DNA of 38,358 nt, taken from positions 1-38,358 of the forward strand of contig VMCJ01000108.1 in NCBI GenBank assembly GCA_008081395.1, in the 5' to 3' direction. Each line of letters starts with the position of its first letter. Within the stretch, counting starts at the first letter, position 1. The translations under genes and the position numbers were made by a program. Below the pieces are notes generated by a model. It saw only the letters and a program-made list of their open reading frames with translations, was not told the DNA's origin and searched no databases. This stretch comes from Rhodospirillales bacterium. Its GTDB lineage: Bacteria > Pseudomonadota > Alphaproteobacteria > Bin95. Shown here in pieces: positions 11,510 to 20,390 of the stretch.

Positions 11510-11585
<76 letters not shown>

Positions 11586-16401: not shown

Positions 16402-16937
16402 TCGGCCGGGGTCGAAGGGATAGACGTGCATCAGATGCCGAACTTGAACTTTGGCAGAGAGCCGTTTCAGATACCGTACCAATTACCAAAAACATTGCAG
16501 CTACTGCTCGGAAGCAACGGACAAATATCCATGTCTCCGATCAAACAGCTAAAGAACCAGCTCTCCCATCAACGGGCAGAGCAACTAAAACACAGCCAAT
16601 TGATAGAAATACCCTAGCCAGACTAAAGAAAGGCCGTATTGAAATTGAGGGAAGACTTGATCTACACGGCTTGAGCGCTTCGCAAGCTGAGCAAGCTCTG
16701 CATCGCTTTCTTCTCTCTAGTCATACAATCGGGCGAAAAGCTGTTCTGGTGATAACAGGGCGCGGCCTTAACCCAGATACTAACGGTCCTGGTATTTTGA
16801 AACGCGAAACACCTCTATGGCTAGATAGAATGCCAGAAATTGTTTCCTCATATGCCCAGGCAGACAGACGTCACGGGGGAGAAGGTGCTTTATACGTGCG
16901 CCTCAGACGCAAAAAGAGAGCGATTCCCGTAAAATGA
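16398..16937 (+). CDS. Smr domain protein (MutS2 C-terminal-like endonuclease family)
   Basis: Stand-alone Smr domain protein, 179 residues. The N-terminal 75 residues are basic and poorly structured. The Smr domain has the LDLHGLS motif at 87-93, the TGRG loop at 120-123 and the closing GGEGALYVRL (160-169), all hallmark positions. Smr domains nick DNA or cleave RNA (for example SmrB on collided ribosomes), so a nuclease role is likely, though the cellular task is not determined here. It is translationally coupled to the membrane protein before it and to the rRNA methyltransferase after it, each by a four-base overlap. Confidence 0.93.
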   Translation: MIGRGRRDRRASDAELELWQRAVSDTVPITKNIAATARKQRTNIHVSDQTAKEPALPSTGRATKTQPIDRNTLARLKKGRIEIEGRLDLHGLSASQAEQALHRFLLSSHTIGRKAVLVITGRGLNPDTNGPGILKRETPLWLDRMPEIVSSYAQADRRHGGEGALYVRLRRKKRAIPVK

Positions 16938-18217
16938 CCCCCAGCGCAATTTTAGCTGCAACAATTGAGATTATGGAGCAACAGGTGGAGCGGTCCGGTC
17001 CTTTGGACCTAATTACTGGCCGCTACCTTCGCCAACGAAGATACATCGGCTCAAAAGACCGGTCATCACTCATGGTTCGGGTCTTTGGACTAGCTCGCAG
17101 GCATTTTCGAATTGGGTGGCGCTTAGAACGAGCTGGCGCGCCTACGACACCACGTGCTCGTGTTATTGCGGACCTAATACTTACTGATGACCTGGAGCTG
17201 GATGCTATTTCAGCTCTATTTAACGGCGAGGGCCATGCTCCAAGAGCACTTGATTCTTCTGAATGGAGCTGGCTACTTCGATTAGGCTCATCCCCACTGG
17301 AAACCAGTGAAATGCCCGCACCAGTGCGACTGGAATGTCCGAACTGGGCTTGGAATGGCTTGAAAAAGGCTTTCGGGGAAAAAACTGAGTTGCAACTTCA
17401 GTCCCTTCTTCAGGAAGCTCCACTAGATCTCAGGGTTAATACACTTAAAACTGATACAAGAAGAGCTTTAAATGCAATTAAAAAAGCAGGTTTTCTTGCG
17501 GAATTCACACCCCTTTCAGTCACAGGCATAAGGCTAGAGCAGAGGGTAGCACTTGGCCGCCTGCCAGGACTACTAGAGGGATCTGTCGACCCCCAGGATG
17601 AAGGTTCTCAATTAGCAGCGGCGGCTCTGAATCCACAGCCAGGCGAACGTATTGCTGACTTTTGTGCAGGTGCAGGCGGCAAGACACTCGCTATGGCTGC
17701 GGCTATGAGAAATAAAGGCAGAATCCTTGCCCTAGATGATGACCAAAGGCGCCTGGATCGAGCTGCCCCAAGATTGGCAAAAGCTGGTGTGGATATTGTA
17801 GAGAGGCGACTTCTTACGCCAGGTCGAGATACCTGGCTCAAGCGACAGGCTGGCAAATTTGACGGCGTTCTTATTGATGCTCCCTGCTCCGGTGTTGGAG
17901 CGTGGCGCCGAAACCCAGATGCTCGATGGGGCCGTGGACAGCCAGACATTGCAAGCTTAACCAAGTTACAGTCAGAAATTCTCGATCGCGCTGCACGTCT
18001 TGTACGACCAGGAGGAAGGCTAGTTTACGTAACGTGTTCGTTAATTCCTGAAGAAAATGAATTACAAACAAGTGCATTTCTTTCACGAACCCCAGGGTTT
18101 TCTTACGGAACTCCTATTAATTTTCCTGTAAAGACCGATGACGGTCATGTCACTCTAACTCCAAGCGATACCGGGACTGACGGGTTTTTTATTGCTTGGC
18201 TGAATCGGGAAATATGA
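16934..18217 (+). CDS. rsmB: RsmB/NOP2-family rRNA (cytosine-5) methyltransferase
   Basis: SAM-dependent RNA m5C methyltransferase, 427 residues. The N-terminal half is the NusB-like helical domain expected in RsmB, though it is short and diverged. The catalytic domain has the SAM loop DFCAGAGGKT (242-251), the aspartate in ALDDD (266-270), and both cysteines of the two-cysteine mechanism: IDAPCSGVG with Cys318 and VTCSL with Cys368. The likely substrate is 16S rRNA (C967 equivalent), but a related paralogue with another RNA target is possible. It is the last gene of the coupled smr unit and is followed by a hairpin with a T-run. Confidence 0.92.
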   Translation: MTPSAILAATIEIMEQQVERSGPLDLITGRYLRQRRYIGSKDRSSLMVRVFGLARRHFRIGWRLERAGAPTTPRARVIADLILTDDLELDAISALFNGEGHAPRALDSSEWSWLLRLGSSPLETSEMPAPVRLECPNWAWNGLKKAFGEKTELQLQSLLQEAPLDLRVNTLKTDTRRALNAIKKAGFLAEFTPLSVTGIRLEQRVALGRLPGLLEGSVDPQDEGSQLAAAALNPQPGERIADFCAGAGGKTLAMAAAMRNKGRILALDDDQRRLDRAAPRLAKAGVDIVERRLLTPGRDTWLKRQAGKFDGVLIDAPCSGVGAWRRNPDARWGRGQPDIASLTKLQSEILDRAARLVRPGGRLVYVTCSLIPEENELQTSAFLSRTPGFSYGTPINFPVKTDDGHVTLTPSDTGTDGFFIAWLNREI

Positions 18218-18244
18218 TCCATTAATGTTCAATCCGCGTAACAA
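18215..18244 (+). promoter_or_regulatory. Possible ECF-sigma (RpoE/ChrR-type) promoter before chrR
   Basis: TGATCC at 18215-18220, eighteen bases, then TAACAA at 18239-18244. As I recall it, the -35 element recognised by the Rhodobacter RpoE (ECF11) sigma factor is TGATCC, with a -10 near TAAGA. The -35 overlaps the rsmB stop codon, and the ATG of the ChrR-like gene lies 65 bases after the -10. A six-base word is expected about once per 4 kb per strand, so this is suggestive only. Confidence 0.3.
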
Positions 18245-18273: not shown

Positions 18274-18308
18274 AAGGTCCAATTGAGAAGTGTTAGGTAA
18301 GATTGAAA

Positions 18309-18953
18309 ATGTCCAATGAGTTCCACGTAGCTGAGGAAGACCTCTTTGAGTATGGGGCGGGCGCGTTAGAGGAAGCATGGAGTCTGGCAATAGCTGCTCA
18401 TCTGTCATTCTGTACTTCTTGTCGATCAGCAACAGAACAGTTCGAAGCACTCGGCGGAATCGCGCTAGAGGACCTATCCCCTTCAGAGTTGGATGCAAAC
18501 TCCCTAGCTTTGTGCCTCAAAACACTTGATGAACAAGCCCCTGAAGGCAATGAGTTTAGTGTTTCCGAAGGTAGTATTTTGCCTGGGGTGCTTCAAAAAT
18601 ATGTTGGATCCGATTTAGACCAAATTCAATGGAAACGTGTTGGCGGAGGGGTAAAGCAGGCCATTATTCCAACTAAAGGCAACGCTACCGCTCGTTTGCT
18701 TCGCATACCTCCAGGCGTCGCAGTTCCTGAGCACAGCCATAATGGAACAGAATTAACCGTTGTTTTAGCGGGCTCGTATGTAGACGGACCTCATCTGTTC
18801 GAGCGTGGTGACATTCAACAAGCTGACACTGAGGTGCACCACTCCCCTAGCGTTGTAGGGGCGGAAGAATGCGTGTGCTTAGTCGCAACTGACGCACCGC
18901 TTAAATTCAAATCGATTGTGCCAAGAGTAGTACAAAAATTTATCAGTCTGTGA
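18309..18953 (+). CDS. chrR: ChrR-like zinc-binding anti-sigma factor with C-terminal cupin
   Basis: ChrR holds an ECF sigma factor inactive and releases it on singlet oxygen or peroxide stress. Starting at ATG 18309 (not TTG 18303) gives 214 residues. The N-terminal anti-sigma zinc ligands then fall at His6, His31, Cys35 and Cys38 (HLSFCTSC), exactly the numbering I recall for Rhodobacter sphaeroides ChrR. The C-terminal cupin, about 110-200, carries His142, His144, Glu148 (EHSHNGTE) and His177/178, the expected second metal site. All eight ligands are present, so the protein looks functional. What is odd is the setting: rpoE normally lies directly upstream, but here rsmB does, and no sigma factor gene exists in the window. 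Confidence 0.92.
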   Translation: MSNEFHVAEEDLFEYGAGALEEAWSLAIAAHLSFCTSCRSATEQFEALGGIALEDLSPSELDANSLALCLKTLDEQAPEGNEFSVSEGSILPGVLQKYVGSDLDQIQWKRVGGGVKQAIIPTKGNATARLLRIPPGVAVPEHSHNGTELTVVLAGSYVDGPHLFERGDIQQADTEVHHSPSVVGAEECVCLVATDAPLKFKSIVPRVVQKFISL

Positions 18954-19047: not shown

Positions 19048-20094
19048 CTAAACCGCAGTTTCAAATGATTTAAAGTCCGACGGAACTTGTTTGATTTTTG
19101 AAATCAAATCAGCGTGACGATCATCTTCGATATCATCTGGCAAATCTAACCTTATGGTATCAACGACACCTCCAAAAGAATCAGATATCGCTTGTGGCAG
19201 ATTTTCATAAGTTCCAATTGCCGCGAACAGAGCGACGACGTCATCGGAAACCTCTCCAGCAAGTTCTGACCAACGCCCTTCCTTAGACATCGCGTGGAGT
19301 TTCAAGCCCAGATCCTCAAGACCATGCTGCTCAAATACTGGCAAATAGGTGCGAGTCGACCCATAAAACCCAACACGGTATCGAGCCCAATCTACACGTT
19401 TTTTAACAGCCTCCTCATCTGGCCCAGTACAAATGAAGCCTCCTCCGGAAATCTCGACCGCAGCGCGTTTGCGATTTGCCCGCGCCATACCTTCTTCAAT
19501 CTTAGGCATACACACGTTTTCAATATATTTTCGAGTGCAGAAACTGTGGAGACGAACGCCATCGGCAACACGGCCCGCCATTCGAAGCATGTCAGGCCCA
19601 ACCGCAGCTAGACTTATTGGAGGTAAAGAAAACCCAGTCTTTGGCGGAGAAAATTCTGGTGTCATCAAAGTGAATTGATAGTGCTCACCTTCGAATTTTA
19701 GCGGTTCGCCATATTCCCAACAACGCCAAATAGCTCGGATTGATTGAACGTATTCGCGAAGACGCGGTACGGGTGCGAACCAAGGTGTAGAAAATCGGCG
19801 CTCATTATGACCCTTGACTTGAGAACCCAACCCAAGCTCAAACCGGCCTCCGGACTGTGCATTAAGATCCCAACCAATATTAGCGGTAATCATTGGGCTC
19901 CGCGGAAAAGCAACCGCAATGGATGTACCAAGCTGGACTTTTTGTGTTTCTTGGGACGCCAGAGCCAGTGGCATAAATGGATCGTGGGCGAGTTCAGAGC
20001 TAGCAACGCCATCATAACCGACAGCCTCAGCCCACTGCGCACGGGATGAAGCTCGTTGCCAGTTATCAGTCGGGAGTTGGCAAATAACCCGCAT
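19048..20094 (-). CDS. LLM class flavin/F420-type oxidoreductase (TIGR03617-like)
   Basis: Luciferase-like monooxygenase-fold protein of 348 residues. Recognisable parts are the N-terminal WAEAVGYDGVASSE, VQLGTSIAVAFPRSPM, the GGRFELGLGSQVKGHNERRF loop that binds the cofactor phosphate, and SLAAVGPDMLRMAGRVADGV. It most resembles the TIGR03617 'F420-dependent' subgroup common in actinobacteria and some alphaproteobacteria. Whether it uses F420 or FMN cannot be decided; no F420 biosynthesis gene is in view. It stands alone on the minus strand. With the acyl-CoA enzymes at the left end it may belong to the same catabolic style, but there is no operon link. Confidence 0.88.
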   Translation of the reverse strand: MRVICQLPTDNWQRASSRAQWAEAVGYDGVASSELAHDPFMPLALASQETQKVQLGTSIAVAFPRSPMITANIGWDLNAQSGGRFELGLGSQVKGHNERRFSTPWFAPVPRLREYVQSIRAIWRCWEYGEPLKFEGEHYQFTLMTPEFSPPKTGFSLPPISLAAVGPDMLRMAGRVADGVRLHSFCTRKYIENVCMPKIEEGMARANRKRAAVEISGGGFICTGPDEEAVKKRVDWARYRVGFYGSTRTYLPVFEQHGLEDLGLKLHAMSKEGRWSELAGEVSDDVVALFAAIGTYENLPQAISDSFGGVVDTIRLDLPDDIEDDRHADLISKIKQVPSDFKSFETAV

Positions 20095-20209: not shown

Positions 20210-20239
20210 GGGGTAAGCTGCGCGATACGTTAGGACCTT

Positions 20240-20390
20240 AGAAATCCCGGGGCCGATATCGAAGCTCCAGGGAGCTGTCACTGCAGGGGATCGTGGTCTC
20301 CTACACACGGCGCCCACCTCACTTGGTGAGGTCCCGGAGGATTCGTTCCAGTCCGACGGTCAAGCGGCACCCCGCGCACCCCGGAGGGAT
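20240..20390 (+). ncRNA. ssrS: 6S RNA (ends approximate)
   Basis: 6S RNA binds the RNA polymerase housekeeping holoenzyme by imitating an open promoter. The region folds into a long imperfect rod closed by CCGGGG (20247-20252) with CCCCGG (20379-20384). A TCCT/AGGA clamp lies inside (20299-20302 with 20338-20341). A perfect terminal hairpin ACCTCAC-TTG-GTGAGGT (20316-20332) caps it, leaving a large internal bubble between the stems. A small extra dyad AGCTCC/GGAGCT occurs on the 5' side (20263-20276). About 150 bases and the position directly before the 5-formyltetrahydrofolate cyclo-ligase gene are as in other proteobacteria. The usual upstream zapA is absent here. Confidence 0.73.

Follow-up and report, generated by a model that had tools for sequence, protein, structure and literature searches.

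In the textbook scheme, the linkage of a sigma factor and its anti-sigma factor in one operon, combined with autoregulation, keeps this type of switch balanced. Organic hydroperoxide and singlet oxygen are the known signals of ChrR. The closest described system is RpoE-ChrR of R. sphaeroides (SigE-ChrR, group ECF11), which is encoded by one rpoE-chrR operon according to the available excerpt of PMC6852236. The metal ligands of ChrR are given there as 6His, 31His, 35Cys and 38Cys, and as 141His, 143His, 147Glu and 177His. In the same excerpt, singlet oxygen acts via a turnover of ChrR that requires furan-fatty-acid genes, and organic hydroperoxide acts without them. ECF11 is treated as a standard soluble-anti-sigma group in the accessible part of PMC8999054. 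For ECF12 sigma factors without a neighbouring anti-sigma factor, orphan class I anti-sigma factors have been suggested (PMC7406223, in the portion available). The present case shares with that suggestion the idea of an unlinked anti-sigma factor, but concerns a specific ECF11 set in which the promoter has also changed places.

The chrR gene described here lies at 18309..18953 (+) of the window, the whole 38,358-nucleotide stretch of DNA that was analysed. It encodes a ChrR-family anti-sigma factor of 214 amino acids, and a TTG at 18303 in the open reading frame listing is an alternative start. The protein has an N-terminal zinc anti-sigma domain and a cupin-like domain (Cupin_7 match, 18609-18890). 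It scores 194.6 bits with TIGR02451 ("ChrR family anti-sigma-E factor"), above the cut-off of 124.5, and 145.7 bits with the stricter equivalog NF051881 (StressantisigmaChrR), below the cut-off of 300. The only solved relatives found were two R. sphaeroides ChrR sequences, 2z2s_B and 2q1z_B. In the alignment with the former, which spans residues 4-203 (E 1.4e-49), the zinc anti-sigma ligands H6, H31, C35 and C38 and the cupin ligands H142, H144, E148 and H178 are all present. The preliminary description had reported all eight, and seven stand where it placed them. The eighth, left there as His177/178, is H178 and not H177, being aligned to ChrR His177 and invariant in the genus alignment. Judged by its sequence, the gene is predicted to encode a working ChrR-type anti-sigma factor that would bind and inhibit an ECF11 sigma factor.

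The direct upstream neighbour of chrR is rsmB (16934..18217, +; PF01189 and synteny). Downstream lies a convergent gene for a luciferase-like monooxygenase (19048..20094, -; PF00296), which is also the neighbour in the related genome G002, at 88% identity. As noticed at the outset, no ECF sigma gene stands beside chrR: none was found among its neighbours in the window, none of the Sigma70_r2 matches of the genome lies next to it, and the locus is thus not an rpoE-chrR operon. An ECF11 gene was present in the fetched stretch at 77 of 80 chrR loci of named genomes, the other three being of the same genus. The missing sigma gene is therefore not what chance would be expected to give.

The genome of the window (G000) is a MAG of 2,565,445 bases in 176 contigs, 96.3% complete and 2.0% contaminated. 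Four Sigma70_r2 matches were found in it, one of which is ECF-sized. This is rpoE, encoding an ECF-type sigma factor of 185 amino acids with Sigma70_r2 and r4_2 matches, on contig C47 (C47:8755-9312, -). The best solved match of this RpoE is R. sphaeroides RpoE/SigE (2q1z_A, E 1.6e-39), followed at a wide distance by SigK (3.3e-23). Its assignment to ECF11 is based on SigE as the closest solved chain, on the ECF size and on regions 2 and 4, while the profile matches are to generic ECF models. The 17,341-base contig carrying rpoE contains no chrR. On one side of rpoE are a 96-aa gene without a Pfam match and two genes that we take to be rluD and an rpoH-like gene, named from Pfam domains; a CMD-family gene is on the other side.

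A single match to the orphan ChrR and a single TIGR02451 match were obtained in G000. Sequence and TIGR02451 profile searches of the 96.3% complete assembly found no second chrR, and no second ECF-sized Sigma70_r2 match was seen in the genome. Two other Cupin_7 proteins of G000 have no anti-sigma domain match. The earlier proposal that the orphan ChrR controls a distant sigma factor gains support from this pairing of one ECF-type sigma factor, remote and without a chrR of its own, with one ChrR, and the two proteins would be expected to bind each other. A complete rpoE-chrR operon elsewhere in G000, by which this copy would become a paralogue with another role, was searched for and not found. 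Such a paralogue situation is real in the relatives G001 and G004, both of which have a canonical rpoE-chrR operon besides the split set, but not in G000 as far as the assembly shows.

A motif scan, computational only, placed an ECF11-type promoter-like site, TGATCC-N16-CGTA, before chrR (18215..18240, +). The rsmB stop codon, TGA, forms the start of its -35 element. In the chrR leaders of five genus members, the -35 and -10 boxes are the best-kept block. Identical boxes with identical spacing are described for the ECF11 promoter of Pseudomonas syringae (PSPTO_1043/1042), obtained by ChIP-Seq (PMC5507510), and for that of Shewanella oneidensis (rpoE2-chrR), with a mapped start (PMC4336711), both as given in the available parts of these papers. 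In these two species, the sigma and anti-sigma genes are paired and the promoter precedes the former, whereas here the site precedes the lone chrR. No site was found within 1000 bp upstream of the G000 rpoE. Compared with R. sphaeroides, the protein families and both metal sites are the same and the promoter is of the type of other ECF11 systems; the differences are that the genes occupy two loci here, instead of one operon, and that the site stands before chrR only. Scans for sigma-70 promoters and terminators gave matches at chance level only.

The arrangement is shared by the whole genus as sampled. Both proteins were searched in 95 genomes, five of which (G000-G004) represent the genus of the window. 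In all five, rpoE and chrR are found at separate loci, and the rpoE locus has the order rpoH-rluD-(96-aa gene)-rpoE without a chrR. The synteny of the chrR locus in relatives, a comparison put forward in the preliminary description, agrees: a chrR without rpoE recurs in 5/5 members, with rsmB as the constant gene on its upstream side. G002 resembles G000 in having a single rpoE and a single chrR, and two relatives have two ECF11 sigma factors each. In four of the five, chrR directly follows rsmB. In G003, SDR, DUF3833, MFS, chalcone-isomerase-like, CFA-like, DUF1365 and amine-oxidase genes lie between rsmB and chrR (Pfam names taken from the copies in G006 and G200). We take this SDR-to-amine-oxidase block to resemble the furan-fatty-acid-type target operon of R. 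sphaeroides. The same block adjoins the intact rpoE-chrR operons of G006 and G001. Its DUF1365 gene was found in four of the six genomes searched and is absent from G000 and G002, a further difference from R. sphaeroides.

A survey of the class covered 387 genomes of at least 90% completeness. TIGR02451 matches over the cut-off amounted to 150 chrR rows from 145 genomes, and an ECF11-like sigma factor was present at E 1e-38 or better in 168 of the 387. Nineteen of the 150 rows, from 19 genomes, had no ECF11 gene within 2 kb; for ten of these genomes, the position of the sigma gene was taken from a separate search or from fetched stretches. Four candidates were then set aside. In G135, a weaker chrR adjoins the sigma gene, which makes it an intact pair plus an extra copy, and in G133, G219 and G319 an intact pair is present at another place. 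Truly separate sigma and chrR genes are found in 15 genomes of five families (f1, f94, f19, f71 and f68), with G001 also having an intact operon. The distance between the two genes is about 2 Mb in G200, a single contig of 4.26 Mb, and in G277, where they share a contig.

The position of the promoter-like site changes with the split. A site was counted when the 300 bp before the domain start contained TGATCC-N16-CGTA with no more than one mismatch. Across the five split-pair families, such a site precedes 36 of 42 orphan chrR genes and one of 44 split rpoE genes. The proportions are inverted in intact operons (7/114 before chrR, 104/117 before rpoE). Permuted motifs gave 0.5% on average, and 6.8% as the largest single value. 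Fisher's test for the swap gives p 9e-17, which overstates independence as the rows are related. When the search before 45 split rpoE genes was widened to 1000 bp, G342 still gave the only site. After the pattern had emerged in a first set of genomes, it was checked in additional members of those families. Among the later f94 genomes, the exact site precedes 8/8 orphan chrR genes and 0/9 split rpoE genes, and in the intact f94 pair of G422 it precedes rpoE and not chrR. Among the later f19 genomes, the site with at most one mismatch precedes 12 of 17 orphan chrR genes and none of 17 split rpoE genes; the sigma gene of these 17 orphans is on another contig in 15 cases, and none was found for G431 and G434.

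There are exceptions. Four genomes of one f19 genus (G433, G434, G435 and G437) have no site before the orphan chrR, the f19 rows G031 and G427 have one with two mismatches only, and the split rpoE of G342 has a one-mismatch site in front. Left out of the counts were the fragmentary f19 chrR matches of G430, G436 and G444, repeat genomes, the split rpoE of G424 with less than 100 bp of upstream DNA, and three paired loci without a chrR frame of at least 100 bits or without 100 bp upstream.

The metal sites of ChrR were compared across the set. All eight ligands are kept in four of five genus members, the fifth (G004) having a gap from a frameshift, and in f94 (12/13), f68 (1/1), intact class rows (31/37) and named rows (74/77). 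The four anti-sigma zinc ligands are intact in all five genus rows. The zinc site is kept in none of the orphan ChrRs of f19 (0/21) or f71 (0/2), and the cupin site is kept in all 23 of these. The orphan ChrRs without a zinc site are those of loci L099, L101, L103, L082 and L275-L294 (f19) and L085 and L107 (f71).

For G000, we consider it probable that the two genes are a split pair, in which a working ChrR has the C47 RpoE as its partner and in which the sigma factor has lost autoregulation and drives its own inhibitor, forming a negative feedback loop in trans. In this circuit, ChrR would hold RpoE inactive. Stress would inactivate ChrR and free RpoE, which would then read the site before chrR and transcribe its own brake, and not rpoE. 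The RpoE-type promoter would have been lost from the sigma gene and would stand before chrR instead. The sigma factor would thus be made independently of its own activity, while the brake would be sigma-dependent and self-limiting. Since the DUF1365 gene is lacking in G000 and G002, hydroperoxide would be the likelier inducing signal in these two genomes. The reading is limited by the assembly, as a MAG of 176 contigs at 96% completeness may hold an unseen second ECF gene.

Other explanations differ in what they make of the orphan gene. It may be the leftover of a lost rpoE-chrR operon, with the remaining RpoE being free or otherwise regulated. The differing histories of the sigma factor and ChrR (see below) would fit such an origin, as would the remnant-like position of the G003 orphan, which still adjoins the furan-fatty-acid-type operon seen alongside intact rpoE-chrR operons. 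We nevertheless regard this as unlikely: with 43-62% identity among them, the split copies of the genus keep the eight ligands (with one gap, in the frameshifted G004), and within a leader that has diverged, the RpoE-type site is preserved best. A promoter specific to the sigma factor would hardly be expected to survive in front of a relic. The protein might also have turned into a cupin-type metal sensor or enzyme that has nothing to do with sigma factors. This is suggested by f19 and f71, where the cupin ligands outlasted the zinc ligands (23/23 against 0/21 and 0/2), but it is very improbable for a genus in which the anti-sigma zinc ligands are intact in 5/5 members.

Two further explanations concern the assembly. 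ChrR could control another sigma factor, for instance one whose ECF gene is missing from a MAG of 96% completeness, and the two relatives with two ECF11 sigma factors give this some substance. It is quite improbable, given that G000 has no further ECF-sized Sigma70_r2 match and that G002 likewise combines one rpoE with one chrR. MAGs are fragmented, and the separation itself might be an artefact of assembly; with chrR and rpoE both in mid-contig, with the same neighbours in relatives, and with the split spanning about 2 Mb in G200 (one contig) and G277, this is scarcely credible. The split pair with feedback in trans is the reading that we retain for G000.

The split rpoE occupies one of two locations. 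It is next to rluD in the genus of the window and at rlmN-ialB in f94, f19, f71 and f68 at all loci examined, although at locus L086 only ialB was seen beside it. In G220 and G024, an intact rpoE-chrR pair is found at rlmN-ialB. Beyond these two locations, there is no firm count of independent splits, the resolution of the whole tree being low. In f68 and at most f94 and f19 loci, the genes after the orphan chrR are DUF6134 and SDR genes. Some genomes combine an intact rpoE-chrR pair with an extra chrR that has its own ECF11-type site (loci L111, L105, L109 and L110). This arrangement, seen in G135 and G319, is likely an intermediate, and the split would arise from it once the chrR of the operon was lost.

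Trees of sigma factors and ChrRs, from which six long-branch genomes were left out, do not tell the same story for the genus. The split sigma factors form one group (92/81), and the split ChrRs form another with weaker support (80/77). The eight ChrRs of the family, split and canonical, make up one clade (94/94). Forcing the eight sigma factors of the family together costs 24 log-likelihood units, a constraint that is rejected marginally (p-AU 0.041). A tree that joins the split ChrRs to four rows of the groups nearest to the sigma factor is rejected (p-AU 0.0004), this set having been chosen once the sigma tree was known. The split pair therefore seems to lack one shared history; its members may descend from two different ancestral copies brought together by re-assortment, and may fit each other less well.

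Taken across families, the new observation is that an ECF11-type promoter stands before the orphan chrR and not before the distant rpoE, with the same swap recurring across the five split-pair families. Neither an unlinked ECF11 pair nor such a promoter swap is described in the literature searched; the ECF11 survey of Dufour (2008), which lies beyond it, may note some. We lean toward the view that the ECF11 operon was repeatedly rewired in several alphaproteobacterial families to a split circuit, with a sigma gene that lacks its sigma-dependent promoter, a lone chrR that bears this promoter, and negative feedback in trans. In this scheme, the ChrRs of f19 and f71 dropped the zinc site, the sigma factor and brake of the genus came from different ancestral copies, and G135 and G319 resemble intermediates. 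If true, linkage and self-activation were lost in a conserved and recurrent manner while the sigma-dependent brake was kept. The response predicted for such a circuit differs from that of the operon in being faster and graded, with no self-sustained on state. Naturally wired and rewired pairs would then be a test bed for the purpose of autoregulation, and searches for cognate anti-sigma factors that are confined to the gene neighbourhood would miss such split pairs.

The promoter-like motif was also searched genome-wide. Exact matches with N16 numbered 10 in five genomes, and other spacings gave about five each; as this excess is modest, no regulon is claimed from the search. In both G000 (L233, near 2063, -) and G002 (L236, near 2078, -), a DUF4864 gene is preceded by an exact site at an equal distance, which makes this gene a candidate regulon member. 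Another exact site precedes an rpoH-like gene in G003 (L238, near 2054, -), and R. sphaeroides rpoH2 is known to have an ECF11-type site in front.

The window also contains two RNA genes. A tRNA gene is found at 11510-11582 (+; Rfam RF00005). A 6S RNA gene at 20212-20374 (+; Rfam RF00013) scores 47.8 bits, just above the gathering score, and is directly followed by what is presumably a gene of the 5-formyltetrahydrofolate cyclo-ligase type.
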